From NCBI GenBank assembly GCA_038746285.1, contig JBCDKT010000001.1:1-64000 (forward strand): a DNA stretch of 64,000 nt, read 5' to 3'. The stretch's first letter is position 1, and each line of letters starts with the position of its first letter. Both the position numbers and the translations under genes were made by a program. Source of the DNA: Bacteroidota bacterium (GTDB lineage Bacteria > Bacteroidota > Rhodothermia > Rhodothermales > JANQRZ01). Below are positions 20,628 to 35,541 of this stretch, piece by piece. The notes beneath the pieces were generated by a model. That model was not told the origin of the DNA. It saw nothing but the letters and a program-made list of their open reading frames with translations, and searched no databases.

Positions 20628-21215
20628 ATGGTACGGAATCAGTTCGACAGAATCAAATCGGAAAATCGGTTTTCAAATAACTACGACACGCTCAATTCGC
20701 CAGGTTCGCGTGGTCATCGCCTTCGTCAATCGGTCTTAGTCGGGGACCTATTCAGAGGACTGCTCGGAGGTTATACATTCCTCGCAGACGAGGACATCTC
20801 CACCAATGAAATCAACGTCCTCCGTGACCGTGACTACGAAGTGCGAGCAGTGCTCGAGGAATTGCCGGGTGCAGATGATACTGACGTTCTTTCTTTAGCG
20901 TCCCAGGAAGGCCTGGTACTGCTCGGATGCGATAAGGGTTATGGGACTCTCATCTTTCGCGACGGTCATCCACCGCCATTAGGCGGAATACTATTCAGGG
21001 GCCAGCCGCGTAACATCGCGGACTTGACAATGGACGTACTATGTTCGGGAATAGCGCTAATGGGGAATTACATCGTAGTGAGGCCAGGGCAAATGGTTTC
21101 TAGGTCTCGTCCACTTCCCCCCCGTTCCAACGGTGAAACTAAGATGGTACTTCTCGAACCTCCACGTCCTCGCATAATCACCCTCGGAGAAAACAAACAG
21201 ACTGGTTCTTCCTGA
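20628..21215 (+). CDS. DUF5615-like PIN-related protein, possibly degenerate
   Basis: The central part matches the pattern of DUF5615 (Mut7-C/PIN-like) proteins. It has FLADEDISTNEINVLRDRDY, then VLEELPGADDTDVLSLASQE, LLGCDKGYGTLIFRDG and GNYIVVRPGQMVSRSRPLP. In this family the chain usually starts right at the LADEdI motif and ends just after the RxRPLP motif. Here ~57 unrelated residues precede it and ~35 follow, so the true start may be elsewhere, or the gene is a remnant. The usual partner antitoxin (DUF433) is not visible. Base composition is lower in GC than the neighbours, pointing to transfer. Confidence 0.5.
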   Translation: MVRNQFDRIKSENRFSNNYDTLNSPGSRGHRLRQSVLVGDLFRGLLGGYTFLADEDISTNEINVLRDRDYEVRAVLEELPGADDTDVLSLASQEGLVLLGCDKGYGTLIFRDGHPPPLGGILFRGQPRNIADLTMDVLCSGIALMGNYIVVRPGQMVSRSRPLPPRSNGETKMVLLEPPRPRIITLGENKQTGSS

Positions 21216-21315: not shown

Positions 21316-21512
21316 GTCATCCCGAGCGGAGTCTCGGAGAGGCGCAGTCGAGGAACCCGAAGGCTCGGCGAAGCCCATCTCTAGTGGCACAGCGTTCAAG
21401 GCGCTCGCATCCCTGTGCCCGGAGCGTTATTCCTCGTCCCGCTTCCGGTCATAGAAGCGACGGGCTGCTGACGGCTTCCCCGGAAAGATCCCTCGACTGC
21501 GCTCGGGATGAC
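21316..21512. repeat. GTCATCC-ended dispersed repeat, copy 2
   Basis: A 197-bp block beginning GTCATCCCGAGCGGAGTCTC and ending CTGCGCTCGGGATGAC; the ends form an inverted repeat of about 13-16 bp. The first ~110 bases are almost identical to copy 3 at 22241-22436, in direct orientation. The two copies bracket the VapBC-like pair at 21611-22224. No protein is encoded. Confidence 0.85.
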
Positions 21513-21610
21513 GTTGGGGAAACCGGTGTTCCTATCGCAATGACAGGCGGGGGTGAGGCAACCTAGCTCTGTGTGCGGAAGTACCACGGAGCAGACCAAC
21601 CGAGCGAGCC

Positions 21611-21835
21611 ATGCAGGCCCACCGCGCCGAAGCCACCGTAGCCGGGGACGGAAGCATCACCGTCCGCGACGTTCCCTTCTCCGAGGGCGAGGAGGTCGAG
21701 GTCATCGTGCTCCCGCGCGTGTCGGCCTCTCCGTCGGACCGCGATGCTTTGAAGGGCAGCGTGCGGCGCTACACCGATCCGTTCGATTCCGCCGTAGACC
21801 CGGATACGTGGGACGCAGGACGCAAAGCGTCGTGA
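21611..21835 (+). CDS. Antitoxin paired with PIN toxin
   Basis: A 74-residue protein starting MQAHRAEATVAGDGSITVRD and continuing VPFSEGEEVEVIVLPR. This beta-rich N-terminus is like the small DUF104/AbrB-like antitoxins found before VapC-type toxins; the charged C-terminus (RYTDPFDSAVDPDTWD) would bind the toxin. Its stop codon overlaps the GTG start of the PIN gene (GTGA). Both lie between two long direct repeats. Confidence 0.7.
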   Translation: MQAHRAEATVAGDGSITVRDVPFSEGEEVEVIVLPRVSASPSDRDALKGSVRRYTDPFDSAVDPDTWDAGRKAS

Positions 21836-22224
21836 TCGTTCTCGATACGCACGTCTGGATCTGGTGGGTGACAGGAAACGACCGGCTCACGGAGTCGCAA
21901 AAGGAAGCTCTGCGTGAGGGCGAGCAAGACGGCATCGGCGTCAGTGTCATCTCATGCTGGGAGGTGGCAAAGCTCGTAGAGATCCGTCGTCTGGACTTGG
22001 ACCGGCCCATCGCCGAGTGGCTCCGCCTCGCCCTCAGCTTATCTGGTGTCCGTCTGCTCGACCTGACACCCGAAATCGCTGTCGCCTCCACCACACTACC
22101 CGGCGATTTCCACCGCGACCCCGCCGACCAGATCATTGTCGCCACGGCTCGCTCGGCAGGTTGTCCGCTCGTCACGTCGGACCGGCAGATCATCGCATAC
22201 GAGCACGTAGAGACGATAGCCTGA
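21832..22224 (+). CDS. PIN-domain toxin (VapC-like ribonuclease)
   Basis: A 130-residue protein starting at GTG 21832 (MIVLDTHVWIWWVTG). PIN-domain acidic residues: Asp in LDTHVWIWW, Glu in SCWEVAKL, Asp in RDPADQIIVATA and Asp in LVTSDRQII. This is the LDTHxxLW subtype of VapC. It probably cleaves RNA when released from the antitoxin. The GTGA overlap gives translational coupling. It ends 16 bases before repeat copy 3. Confidence 0.85.
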   Translation: MIVLDTHVWIWWVTGNDRLTESQKEALREGEQDGIGVSVISCWEVAKLVEIRRLDLDRPIAEWLRLALSLSGVRLLDLTPEIAVASTTLPGDFHRDPADQIIVATARSAGCPLVTSDRQIIAYEHVETIA

Positions 22225-22240
22225 CGGCCGGCACGGATGT

Positions 22241-22436
22241 GTCATCCCGAGCGGAGTCTCGGAGAGACGCAGTCGAGGAACCCGAAGGCTCGGCGAAGCC
22301 CATCTCTAGTGGCACAGCGTTCAAGGCGCTCGCAGCCCTGTGCCCGGAGCGACGCTCATCGCCCCGCTTTCGGTCCTAGGAGTGCTGGGCTCCGACAGTT
22401 TCCCCGGAGAGATCCCTCGACTGCGCTCGGGATGAC
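22241..22436. repeat. GTCATCC-ended dispersed repeat, copy 3
   Basis: A 196-bp block with the same ends and almost the same first 110 bases as copy 2, in direct orientation 925 bp further on. The inner right half (about 22355-22400) has diverged. With copy 2 it forms a composite-like unit around the VapBC pair. Confidence 0.85.
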
Positions 22437-22487
22437 GTCGGAGAGAGAGTGCGCTTACCTTCTGAGCCTAACTGGAGAAGCACCGTC

Positions 22488-31432: not shown

Positions 31433-31852
31433 ATGCCCGAGCACACCTACGACTCCATGCAGGTCGGCGACACCTTCGAGTGGAGCCGCACGATTTCCGC
31501 CGCCGACGTGCAAGCCTACGCCGACGTCTCCGGCGACGACAACCCGCTCCACCTCGACCCGGAGTACGCCGCCACGACGCCTTTCGGTGAGCCCATCGTC
31601 CACGGCGCGTTCCTGCTCGGCGTCGTCTCCAAAGTTCTCGGCCGGGACTATCCGGGGCACGGCAGCGTCGCCGTCTCGCTCTCCGCCAAGTTCCTCCGGC
31701 CCGTCCCCATCGGCTCTGAGGTGCGCATCGAGGTCAAGGTGGCCGAAAAGGTCGAGCGCTTCGGACACGTCCGCGTCCGCGTCACGGCCTACAACGAGGC
31801 CGGCAAGACCGCCCTCGGCGGCGAGGCCGTCGTCATCCCGCCGAAGGAGTAG
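31433..31852 (+). CDS. MaoC-like (R)-specific enoyl-CoA hydratase
   Basis: A 139-residue hotdog-fold protein. It has the hydratase-2 motif: Asp in ADVSGDDNPLHLDPEYAATT, then the His in IVHGAFLLGVVSKVLG. These are the conserved Asp/His of (R)-hydratases such as PhaJ, which supply (R)-3-hydroxyacyl-CoA, so a role in fatty-acid or polyester metabolism is likely. The start is ATG 31433. The last 31 coding bases (31817-31847) are repeated exactly 541 bp downstream, beyond a toxin-antitoxin pair. Confidence 0.88.
   Translation: MPEHTYDSMQVGDTFEWSRTISAADVQAYADVSGDDNPLHLDPEYAATTPFGEPIVHGAFLLGVVSKVLGRDYPGHGSVAVSLSAKFLRPVPIGSEVRIEVKVAEKVERFGHVRVRVTAYNEAGKTALGGEAVVIPPKE
31817..31847 (+). repeat. Direct repeat (proximal copy), 3' end of the MaoC gene
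   Basis: The 31 bases starting GGCGGCGAGGCCGTCGTCAT and ending CCGCCGAAGG are inside the MaoC-like gene. The identical 31 bases recur at 32358-32388. The toxin-antitoxin pair at 31875-32293 lies between the two. Confidence 0.9.
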
Positions 31853-31874: not shown

Positions 31875-32096
31875 TCATATTCCGCGTGGGATCCAATCCA
31901 GCGCCACCGCCCGATAGTCGCGCCCGATGCGGACCGACCACAACAGCGGAGATGTGCCGGGCAGCTTTTTGAAGTGGAGCGACGGGTGGCGTGGGTCGGC
32001 TTCGAGCAAGCGGTAGTTCTTTCGCGCCAGTCGCTGCACCGACTCGGGCAGCCGGTCGAACTGCTTCCAGAAGCCGGCCGTTGTGCGGTGCGTCAC
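31875..32096 (-). CDS. RelE/HigB-type toxin, small
   Basis: A 73-residue protein: FWKQFDRLPESVQRLARKNY, then RHPSLHFKKLPGTSPLLWSV and RIGRDYRAVALDWIPRGI. This is the RelE-superfamily pattern (L..lP..vq..a....l...p..p.l..k.l.g....sirig..yRa.). It probably cleaves mRNA or inhibits the ribosome. It overlaps the antitoxin by 4 bases (ATGA). The module sits between two exact 31-bp direct repeats. Confidence 0.78.
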   Translation of the reverse strand: MTHRTTAGFWKQFDRLPESVQRLARKNYRLLEADPRHPSLHFKKLPGTSPLLWSVRIGRDYRAVALDWIPRGI

Positions 32097-32293
32097 GGAA
32101 GCGGTCGGGTACGCCCCGCCTCGATATCCGCTTCAGCCTCACGGACGAGCGCGTCGAGCCTCCCGGCACGGGCGTCTTCTTCGATCTGCCGGTCCCACTC
32201 GTTGGCCCGGTACTCCGCTACCCACTCGGCGAACAGGGCAAGGTCCTCCGACGAGAGTTTCGTAACGGCTGTTTCGAGTTCCTCGATGCTCAT
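32093..32293 (-). CDS. Antitoxin of the RelE-type module
   Basis: A 66-residue protein MSIEELETAVTKLSSEDLAL followed by FAEWVAEYRANEWDRQIEED and a C-terminal GRLDALVREAEADIEAGRTRPL. The DxxLxxxxxEADxdixAGRTrpL ending is typical of the antitoxins that go with this toxin class. Start at ATG 32293; in-frame codons upstream run into the distal direct repeat and are unlikely to be translated. It overlaps the toxin by 4 bases. Confidence 0.75.
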   Translation of the reverse strand: MSIEELETAVTKLSSEDLALFAEWVAEYRANEWDRQIEEDARAGRLDALVREAEADIEAGRTRPLP

Positions 32294-32357: not shown

Positions 32358-32388
32358 GGCGGCGAGGCCGTCGTCATCCCGCCGAAGG
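32358..32388 (+). repeat. Direct repeat (distal copy) of the MaoC gene 3' end
   Basis: Identical for 31 bases to 31817-31847. Read in the MaoC frame it also continues into a stop (GCA TAG instead of GAG TAG), so it looks like a duplicated gene end rather than random sequence. Upstream and downstream flanks differ from those of the proximal copy. Confidence 0.9.
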
Positions 32389-32405
32389 CATAGGGACAGG
32401 ATGGA

Positions 32406-33414
32406 TTATGGCTTCTCGGCGCGAAGTACAGCGTCCTCCGATGCGTAGTCAAGAGGTAGTGTGTCGCGGTGTCGCCGCTCCCACGCGATGGTTCGTTTCA
32501 GGGCCTCACGCCGACCGACGGGCTCGGCATAGCCCAGTTCTTCGCGGATACGGCTCGTGTCTGTGGCGAGACCGTAGCGGACGTCAAACGGAGGCCGGAG
32601 AGGCTCGGGCAAGCGCTCGGCCGGAACGGTGACGATCCGTCCTGTCCAGCCAGCCACCGCTCCAATCTGGCCCACCCACTCCCGCTCGGTCGGTGTCGTC
32701 GCCTCTCCGATGTTATAGACGCGCCCGGCTGCCCGTTCGTCAGTCACCGCGAGGGCGATAGCGGCCGCCACGTTCTCAACGTAGCCTCTCGTCCACTGCC
32801 AGCCCGCTTGCTTTTCCGACAGCAGAATGGCGGGACGGCCGTCGTCCATGCGCCGGAGGTACGGCCGGAGCCGGTGCTGCCGGTCGCCCGGTCCGTAGAC
32901 GGCGGGGAGCCGGAGGACGGTGCCGAGCAGGTCCGGCGCGCTCAGGACAGCCTGCTCGACCAAAAATCTTGTCGTAGTCGTCAGCCCACGGCTGCGGGAG
33001 GCCGCAGCCTCGGTACGGGAACCGCGTCTCGCGGAGTGGGGCATCTTCCCGGAGCGGGGCCGGATCCGGCGAGGCTGTCGCCTGCCCGCGCGCGCCGTCG
33101 TAGTTCCGGTACACGTCGGCGCTGCTGAGGGCGATGACGCGTCGGGCAAGGCCTCGGAGCGCCTCGACCAGGGTGCGAGCGTGCTGCTCGGTGTAGAGGA
33201 TCAGGTCGAGGACGACTTCTGGCGCGAACCGCTCTAGCTCGGAAGCCATACCAGAGAGGCTGCTGCGGTCGCCGAGGATGTGCCGTGCGCTGGCCGGCAG
33301 GTCGGCGCTCGTCTCGCCGCGATGGAGCACGGTGACCTCATGCCCCTGCTCGACCAGGAAGCGTACGGTGTGAGGGCCGATGAATCCGGTCGCTCCGATG
33401 GCAAGGACTCTCAC
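32406..33414 (-). pseudogene. NAD-dependent epimerase/dehydratase, frameshifted
   Basis: The N-terminal half reads VRVLAIGATGFIGPHTVRFL (Rossmann GxxGxxG), then VVLDLILYTEQHARTLVEAL, VIALSSADVYRNYDG and ADDYDKI. The frame then runs into unrelated arginine/proline-rich sequence. In another frame the expected continuation LVEQAVLSAPDLLGTVLRLP and AVYGPGDRQHRL follows directly and runs to the stop at 32406. The break is at a run of five T on the coding strand (A at 32962-32966); deleting one T restores D-Y-D-K-I-L-V-E-Q. Either a real frameshift or a sequencing error. It is a short-chain SDR related to sugar nucleotide epimerases; substrate unknown. Start GTG 33414. Confidence 0.85.
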
Positions 33415-33448: not shown

Positions 33449-33492
33449 TCAGCGCTGGGGCAGCTTGAGGGGGGTGCCGGCCGAGATCTGCT
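33449..33492 (-). repeat. Direct repeat (distal copy) of the M48 gene 3' end
   Basis: Forty-four bases, 43 identical to 34057-34100 (the last 14 codons and stop of the M48 peptidase gene). It lies 608 bp away on the other side of a ParE-type toxin-antitoxin pair and overlaps the toxin stop by 2 bases. Confidence 0.92.
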
Positions 33493-33805
33493 AAGGTTCG
33501 CGCCCTTCGCTTCCACCGAACTGCCGGGTCGAGTGGAACACCGAGAGAATCTCTACCTCTTCCTCGCCCTCTGCGTCACTGACGAGGTGGAAGATGCGGT
33601 AGCCTTTGTAGATAATCTCGCGCAGCGCAGCGTCCTCGATCTCCGGCACCGCACGGCCTGAGTTGGGGAAGACCTCCAAGCGCTCGACCGCAGCGAACGC
33701 GCCGTCTACGAACGCCTGAGCGTAAGTCGGTGCCTCGCGTGCGAGGTAGTCGCCGACAGCTTCGAGGTCGGCCAGCGCCTGCGGAGACCAGATTACTCGT
33801 GCCAC
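33491..33805 (-). CDS. ParE/RelE-superfamily toxin (second copy)
   Basis: A 104-residue ParE-like toxin: VIWSPQALADLEAVGDYLAR, FPNSGRAVPEIEDAALREII, YRIFHLVSDAEGEEEVEILS and VFHSTRQF. Similar to the one at 3678-3983, with the same GTG start and 13-base overlap with its antitoxin. The two modules are paralogues that have diverged a lot in sequence. It is bracketed by a duplication of the M48 gene end. Confidence 0.83.
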   Translation of the reverse strand: MARVIWSPQALADLEAVGDYLAREAPTYAQAFVDGAFAAVERLEVFPNSGRAVPEIEDAALREIIYKGYRIFHLVSDAEGEEEVEILSVFHSTRQFGGSEGREP

Positions 33806-33984
33806 CGCTTCATCCGGCGCTTTGCCTCATCGTGCGGGATACCCTCTCCGGCGGCGAGTTGCTCGCGTCCGCGCTCGATCTTCTGGAGCATGTAGACCCG
33901 CTCCATCACCTCCTCAAAGGTGATGTCGCTTGGCATCTCTTCCACGGCGCGGAGCACCCGGTCACGGACAGTCGTTTCGGTCAT
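33793..33984 (-). CDS. Antitoxin of the second ParE-type module
   Basis: A 63-residue protein MTETTVRDRVLRAVEEMPSD followed by ITFEEVMERVYMLQKIERGR and IPHDEAKRRMKRWHE. Same motif order as the antitoxin at 3971-4168. Predicted to neutralise the toxin and to repress the pair. Start ATG 33984; 72 bases separate it from the duplicated M48 gene end. Confidence 0.78.
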   Translation of the reverse strand: MTETTVRDRVLRAVEEMPSDITFEEVMERVYMLQKIERGREQLAAGEGIPHDEAKRRMKRWHE

Positions 33985-34056
33985 AGTGTTGCGTTTGCTG
34001 GCAGCGTCAAGGCCTAGTGGTACGATAGTACAAACGGTGCGTTTCTCTGAGCACGT

Positions 34057-34100
34057 TCAGCGCTGGGGCAGCTTGAGGGGGGTGCCGGCCGGGATCTGCT
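34057..34100 (-). repeat. Direct repeat (proximal copy), 3' end of the M48 peptidase gene
   Basis: These 44 bases encode the C-terminal residues GEQIPAGTPLKLPQR-like end and TGA stop of the peptidase. The near-identical copy is at 33449-33492. The only difference is G at 34092 against A at 33484. Confidence 0.92.
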
Positions 34101-35541
34101 CGCCGAGCGACACCTCGTTCATGATGGCGAGGCCGTTGGCATCCAGACCGGTCGGCATCGGGCGGCCGCTGAGGAACGTCTGGAACGGCGCCGTCCGGTT
34201 GGCCTCGAATACGTCGAGGCGAACAGGCTGGCGGTTCAGCTTGTCGCTGTCGGTCAGGCGGTCGAAGCTGCGGGCGGTGCGGTCGAACGCGTCGCGGTAG
34301 GTGCCGAGGTCGCCCGCGCCGGTGTACCCGAGGAATTGGAAGACGTTGCCGTCATACTCGACGAACGTGGCGAGGAGCGCGACCTCGCCCTGCTGCGTGC
34401 TGGCCGTCCCGGTGACGGTGTAGGCCGTGTTGCCGTTGATGCGGGTGGGGCTCTGGTCCGAGACCTGCAACCCCTGCTGCCCGGCGAAGGCCCGCCCGGC
34501 GGCCTGCGCCGAGGATTCCTGCGCGAACGTGAACTGGATGATCGCCCGCCCGTTCTGCTCGGCGATCTGGACCGCCGCCGCGCCATTCGCGACCTGCCAG
34601 CCGTTGGGGTAGTCGAACTCGAAGCGGAGGTCGGGGTGGTAGAAGACGCCGTTCTCAGTAAAGCCCTGGCGCGGGTTCGTGCCGAGGACGAGGCCGTCGA
34701 TCTGGCGGAGGTAGGCGGCGCTGTTGACGGCGGTGCCGGTGTCGTACTGCGCGGCGAGCTGGGGGATCGTCTGCTCGCGCTCGCCCGGGTCGGGGTGGGT
34801 CGAGAGGAACGAGGGGAGGCTGCCGCCGCCCTGGGCGCTCAGGCGGCTGAGCGAGCGGAAGAAGCGCGCGGCCTCGGCCCCGTCGTAGCCCGCGAACTCG
34901 GCGTAGGCCACGCCGGCGCGGTCGGACTCGCGCTCGGCCTCGCGGCTGTTGGAGAGGAAGAGGAGCTGGACGCCGGTCCCGCCGTAGTTCAGGATGCCCT
35001 CGGCCACACCCCCGCCGCCGACGACCCCGCCGAGCACCGCCGCGCCGAGCAGCCCGATCTGGCCCTGCTGCGCCCGCAGCGCTCGCTGCGACGAGTGCCG
35101 CCCGAGGACGTGCCCGATCTCGTGCCCGAGGACGACGGCGAGCTGGGCCTCGTTTTCGAGGTGGGCCAGGAGGCCGCGCGTGATGTACGTGTAGCCGCCC
35201 GGCAGGGCGAAGGCGTTGACCACATCGCTGTCGAGGAGGCGGAAGTAGAACGGCGTGTTGCGGATCTCGGCCGGCGTGGTGGGCTCGGAGTAGGCACTCG
35301 TCTGGAGCACCTCCTGGCCCATCCGCTCGACGTAGGCCTCGAGGCCGGGATCGTCGTAGAGACCGAACTGGGCGATGATCTGCTGGTCGGCCTCGCGGCC
35401 GATCTGGACCTCCTGCTGCCAGGTATACGCCCCGCGCACGGTCTCGCCGGTGATGAGGTTGGTCGACGCCTGGCCGCACCCGACGAGGGGCAGCGCGGCG
35501 AGCAGGAACAGGAAGAAGAGGGGCCGGAGGTGGGGATTCAT
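34057..35541 (-). CDS. M48-family metalloprotease lipoprotein
   Basis: A 494-residue protein with the lipobox LVGC (Cys22). The M48 domain follows: VVNAFALPGGYTYITRGLLA, the zinc motif LGHEIGHVLGRHSS (HEIGH at residues 140-144), and SNSREAERESDRAGVAYAE with the third ligand. The C-terminal ~200 residues (from NGVFYHPDLRFEFDYPNGW) are an extra beta-rich part as in BepA/YfgC-like and LoiP-like envelope proteases. It probably removes misfolded outer-membrane proteins. The very last codons are duplicated 608 bp away. The start is set by the signal peptide. Confidence 0.9.
   Translation of the reverse strand: MNPHLRPLFFLFLLAALPLVGCGQASTNLITGETVRGAYTWQQEVQIGREADQQIIAQFGLYDDPGLEAYVERMGQEVLQTSAYSEPTTPAEIRNTPFYFRLLDSDVVNAFALPGGYTYITRGLLAHLENEAQLAVVLGHEIGHVLGRHSSQRALRAQQGQIGLLGAAVLGGVVGGGGVAEGILNYGGTGVQLLFLSNSREAERESDRAGVAYAEFAGYDGAEAARFFRSLSRLSAQGGGSLPSFLSTHPDPGEREQTIPQLAAQYDTGTAVNSAAYLRQIDGLVLGTNPRQGFTENGVFYHPDLRFEFDYPNGWQVANGAAAVQIAEQNGRAIIQFTFAQESSAQAAGRAFAGQQGLQVSDQSPTRINGNTAYTVTGTASTQQGEVALLATFVEYDGNVFQFLGYTGAGDLGTYRDAFDRTARSFDRLTDSDKLNRQPVRLDVFEANRTAPFQTFLSGRPMPTGLDANGLAIMNEVSLGEQIPAGTPLKLPQR

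Follow-up and report, generated by a model that had tools for sequence, protein, structure and literature searches.

The M48 and MaoC gene ends and their inserts

On its reverse strand the window, that is, the whole 64,000-nucleotide stretch of DNA that was analyzed, carries a gene for an M48-family metalloprotease (34057–35541; PF01435, E 3.7e-29) whose 3' end occurs twice. The last 44 nucleotides of the gene, TGA stop codon included (34057–34100), recur on the same strand at 33449–33492 with 43 of 44 positions identical and a spacing of 608, and an extension of the repeat by 3 nt yields 45 of 47. The outer edge of the genic copy coincides exactly with the stop codon, and the single change in the other copy is from P to S; this second copy is read as an older end of the M48 gene, which would have remained as a scar, and is referred to as the relic. 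Between the two copies resides a gene for a ParE-family toxin of 104 aa (33491–33805, reverse strand; PF05016, E 3.9e-18, above the cut-off), which is full length when compared with homologues, these being of similar length, and whose TAG stop codon lies across the inner edge of the relic. The start of the toxin gene is overlapped by an ORF of 63 aa (33793–33984, reverse strand), which matches no Pfam family and reaches the NCBIfam RelB model only below threshold; based on its position, it is a putative antitoxin gene. Together, the two genes are predicted from the match of the toxin to the ParE/RelE superfamily to form a type II toxin-antitoxin (TA) pair of the ParDE type. They are all that the insert of 564 nt encodes: neither a transposase nor an integrase gene is present, and the edges lack an inverted repeat. 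An earlier reading of the window, made from the sequence alone, had described this duplication around a ParE-type pair and had taken it for the product of a mechanism rather than chance. Both claims were confirmed. When the sampled sequence was simulated twice with an order-3 Markov model, the two sets, together 2.2 Mb, did not contain any local repeat scoring at least 19, while the M48 repeat scores 41; a chance origin of this repeat is thus ruled out.

Similarly, the 3' end of a MaoC-like gene (31434–31852, forward strand), located 1.7 kb from the M48 case, is duplicated. The gene owes its name to the sequence-only reading, its translation being without a Pfam match. Its end (31817–31852) recurs as a relic at 32358–32393 on the same strand with 34 of 36 positions identical, and this repeat is genuine as well. 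The layout is the same as that at M48, with a second module on the reverse strand (31875–32293) between the gene end and the relic, consisting of a ParE-like toxin gene (31875–32096; PF24732, E 2e-4, below the family cut-off) and a putative antitoxin gene (32093–32293). An NAD-dependent epimerase-like gene (32406–33412, reverse strand; PF01370 on the C-terminal part) sits between the M48 and MaoC relics; it is split over two frames and is, therefore, probably broken or misassembled. A further TA locus of the window, L083 (21316–22438, forward strand), harbors a gene for a PIN toxin (21835–22197) within a pair of near-identical non-coding repeats of about 199 nt (21316–21514 and 22241–22438), next to which a GIY-YIG gene follows. 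As these repeats resemble a dispersed repeat family, this locus is possibly a different case.

A comparison with relatives shows the gap between M48 and MaoC to be a recurrent insertion place. In G002, a genome of the same family but of another genus, the two genes are convergent with their stop codons about 75 bp apart and nothing in between, which represents the empty site that the sequence-only reading had proposed to look for. In G001, which belongs to the same genus and has an M48 gene 88% identical to that of the window, the gap is likewise devoid of a TA module. Other genes occupy it: an FG-GAP gene adjoins MaoC, and a small ORF is present together with 23 nt that copy the MaoC end, so that in G001 a non-TA gene is flanked by the MaoC end and its copy. 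The epimerase-like gene is missing at the locus in both genomes. The donor form, a ParDE pair directly adjacent to M48, was found in none of 245 genomes of the class, and the best ParE homologue is 57% identical.

Occurrence of bracketed modules in Rhodothermales

In the window's genome, about a dozen modules are located between copies of the end of a neighboring gene. The genome contains 14 ParE and 19 PIN places, and local direct repeats bracket 8 of these 33: in addition to M48 and L083, these are L077 (start of murJ), L079 (end of acnA), L095 (end of mutS), L101 (end of a uvrD-like gene), L103 (end of a methyltransferase gene) and L104 (end of a T9SS-type gene). A ParE or PIN match was not obtained at all in the same-genus genome G001, a striking contrast in TA load (33 places versus 0). 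A sample of about 1.09 Mb of unselected genome stretches, from which tandem paralogues and terminator pairs were removed as candidates by flank similarity and partly by eye, added a bracketed HicB-family module (PF21748) and a bracketed DhiT-type toxin gene (NCBIfam match just under the cut-off; DUF4160). The layout thus reappears where neither the module nor the gene end is related, as claimed from the M48 and MaoC cases, and does so at many further loci.

It is not restricted to TA modules, however. In the same sample, a GIY-YIG gene at recG and a DUF4864 gene at the locus fd58k are bracketed in the same way. In the array C10 (L155–L157, 20763–25101), which lacks TA genes, the 3' end of an SbcC-like gene is present three times (at 20763, 22677 and 25038), the copies separating a cassette of AraC and SDR genes from one of MarR and transporter genes; in the array C50 (L161, 849–2487), three copies of a gene-end segment (at 849, 1464 and 2423) enclose two different small inserts. 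Gene-end copies around random regions without TA genes, if as frequent as around TA modules, had been named by the sequence-only reading as speaking against its view, and in part the view has to be revised; the over-representation of TA modules, in contrast, stands. About 4 of 16 ParE/PIN loci are bracketed, compared to about 5 of some 1,050 other genes, a number estimated from length (Fisher p about 4e-6, and 1.5e-4 if the dispersed-repeat case is omitted). These statistics cover the 1.09 Mb sample plus the TA loci, among which the bracketed cases were chosen partly by eye; the position of a repeat edge is accurate to about 2 nt. TA modules are, thus, frequent passengers of the layout, enriched but not exclusive, and not proven agents. 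TA-specific transposition was rejected as an explanation, as the non-TA inserts bear the same scars.

Among 45 TA loci scanned in eight other Rhodothermales genomes, about ten are bracketed, including loci in the single-contig genomes G009 and G012. Accordingly, the layout is lineage-wide in Rhodothermales and more general than first claimed. At one G012 locus (L247, 124–1008), 36-nt repeats at a spacing of about 72 nt occur near a PIN gene and probably represent a CRISPR array.

Origin of the gene-end repeats

The two M48 copies differ by one base, so that this locus alone cannot distinguish a homology-anchored insertion from a local duplication, and for the mechanism at M48 we infer from other, more informative loci. 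Across 17 loci, the outer edge of the repeat is no more than 2 nt away from the stop codon in 10 cases and no more than 7 nt away in 15; in 7 of the 17 it lies inside the gene, and at murJ (L077) and L225 it is found at the start codon. A cutting enzyme is blind to codons, whereas homology between orthologues ends there, and the edges at stop codons therefore argue against a target duplication of the transposon type, from which edges independent of gene structure would be expected. Such a duplication would also yield copies that are identical at birth and later acquire neutral changes. Instead, 34 of 63 differences pooled over the loci fall on third codon positions (p = 6e-4), with M48 contributing a single change; at carB, 7 of 8 differences do so, and of the changed codons six are synonymous and one is non-synonymous.

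The ancestry of the copies leads in the same direction. In G001, the recG relic forms one continuous stretch with the 711 nt that follow it (747 nt, 86%). The genic copy, in contrast, proceeds beyond the repeat edge with different codons and still encodes V-G-stop; this genic tail is accordingly a true recG end that stems from another allele. The mutS relic is likewise contiguous with its downstream DNA in G001, the genome in which no ParE or PIN match was found. At uvrD, the relic agrees with G001 at 5 of 6 differing positions, while at most loci it is the genic copy that resembles G001, in total at 41 of 56 differing positions. A rule by which the genic copy is always that of the donor was hence discarded; the donor-derived copy seems to vary by locus. 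Edges, codon bias and ancestry together fit two alleles of one gene end that are joined in series. At the informative loci, the repeat looks like a tract of homology between two alleles and not like a duplication made by the module.

At one locus, fd58k, there is direct evidence that a piece of the chromosome of a relative, ending at an arbitrary break, can serve as an insert. The insert comprises the DUF4864 gene and about 100 nt of the next, comM-like gene, followed by the relic; G002 has, downstream of the same gene, a small ORF, DUF4864 and comM in this order, and the insert matches this region at 77%, the break being located inside comM. The inner joint often lies 0–27 nt from the last stop codon of the cassette. 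This closeness gives the impression of a defined unit, which a homology-anchored insertion does not directly predict; as a guess, useless DNA might have been eroded up to the selected gene.

These data bear on several alternatives. The one that survives best, albeit as an unlikely explanation, is a long and variable target duplication as proposed for restriction-modification (RM) systems, in which the module inserts and about 40–180 bp of target are duplicated. Near-identical copies are in accord with it, as found at M48, MaoC, mutS (58/59), L263 (145/148) and, in relatives, L230 (178/178), the latter requiring a same-species donor or gene conversion if insertion was anchored by homology. The compact inserts with ends close to the TA genes would also fit, and for RM systems long target duplications of variable length, on a scale of 100 bp, are reported (PMC3874152). 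In its plain form this was our initial idea, which was abandoned after the copies had been compared with G001 and G002. Apart from the edges at stop or start codons and the third-position bias with the synonymous-rich relic at carB, it would require that at the 7 of 17 loci with intragenic edges the genic end derives from the insert, V-G-stop at recG included; in addition, the uvrD relic is more ancestral than the genic copy, and the inserts comprise non-TA genes and, in one case, a segment of the gene order of a relative in which a gene is cut short.

Still less probable, in our estimation, is a recombination among existing cassettes, in which excised circles integrate by a single crossover, so that cassettes would shuttle by homologous recombination with gene ends in the role of attachment sites. 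Duplications of 109–950 bp resulted in E. coli when molecules that had been partly degraded and re-circularized underwent single crossovers (PMC3240628), and arrays with three gene-end copies would be readily explained. A reciprocal crossover would leave the relic diverged from G001 on its inner side and the genic copy on its outer side; this is what uvrD, recG and hicg show, but sbcC, mtase and fd58k do not display this pattern, and how a gene end and a cassette first came together is left unexplained. Site-specific recombination by an integrase that uses gene 3' ends as attachment sites is very improbable: tyrosine integrases typically integrate at gene ends and regenerate the gene, but the sequences duplicated here, 35 to 435 nt long at about 17 loci, show no relationship to one another, and none of the inserts examined encodes an integrase. 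We give equally little credence to an assembly artefact in which two strain variants are strung together, as might be suspected for a genome in 134 contigs, since single-contig genomes exhibit the same pattern, the copies diverge by up to 20%, more than strain mixing would produce, and some relics lack stop codons.

Proposed homology-anchored insertion and related systems

The scars are, thus, best explained by homology-anchored insertion, which we consider likely: a second allele, consisting of gene end and cassette, would be joined to the resident gene through homology at one side, whereas the joint at the other side would be illegitimate. At M48, the incoming DNA would have carried an M48 orthologue's end with the ParDE-type cassette behind it. 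The conserved gene end would pair with the resident M48 gene, and the other end of the fragment would be joined without homology inside the last tens of bases of that gene; alternatively, the fragment might circularize and then cross over once. The product would be the gene with its new end, the cassette, the old end and the old downstream DNA in this order, so that the host gene remains whole and the older end persists as a relic. Later recombination between the copies could remove the cassette and leave the gene unharmed. Homology between donor and recipient at one end is supported by the genic tail at recG, by uvrD and by carB, from which we infer the same for M48. The arrays C10 and C50 with their three copies and the empty sites at M48 also speak for this explanation. 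Repeats beyond a few hundred bp may be under-represented due to collapse by recombination. With regard to uptake, natural transformation is plausible. Homologues of dprA and comEC are present in the window's genome, in which no Ku was found; as such homologues also occur in bacteria not known to be competent, their presence is permissive only.

Events of a similar kind have been described. Competent bacteria are known to undergo homology-facilitated illegitimate recombination (HFIR), and in E. coli truncated single-crossover integration gave partial duplications of the homologous gene (PMC3240628). As in HFIR, homology at one end would anchor foreign DNA while the other end is illegitimate, and inserts of about 1 kb are a shared feature (PMC3240628); unlike in HFIR experiments, which usually reveal deletion along with insertion, part of the gene end is here kept twice, at recG without loss of the downstream DNA. 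An HFIR-like event has also been proposed for the arrays of type VI secretion immunity genes in V. cholerae, where new modules enter beside a conserved gene part and older ones are shifted downstream (PMC5361080). The order is similar here, but many unrelated housekeeping gene ends, with TA or other cassettes, take the place of a single type of toxin locus. The small variable segments of E. coli, attributed largely to homology-assisted illegitimate recombination, are short inserts as well, and 10–18% are flanked by direct repeats; most of these repeats are shorter than 30 bp, and the parts of that study drawn on here (PMC2884548) do not connect them with gene ends or TA modules.

Taken from sequence comparison, our findings suggest that TA and similar genes settle beside ordinary genes by using the conserved tail of the neighbor as a recombination handle, and not by transposon-like jumping. 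This addresses the question of how chromosomal TA modules move without transposases, and the scars provide a sequence-level record of the handle gene, its older copy and the order in which cassettes arrived. More tentatively, it might be speculated that small cassettes, for the most part TA modules, form a common pool in Rhodothermales, for which the conserved 3' ends of housekeeping genes are general docking sites by homology. Such cassettes would circulate and assemble into arrays through ordinary recombination, with no dedicated enzyme involved, and leave readable scars. The insertions of RM systems resemble those described here in that addictive modules are enclosed by direct repeats, tens to hundreds of bp long, while the loci are otherwise intact (PMC3874152). 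In the model proposed for RM systems, the repeat is made at insertion; in contrast, codon-limited edges and diverged copies in Rhodothermales point to pre-existing homology. Edges at codon boundaries and synonymous differences between copies would allow a test of whether the long target duplications of RM systems are, in fact, also tracts of homology.
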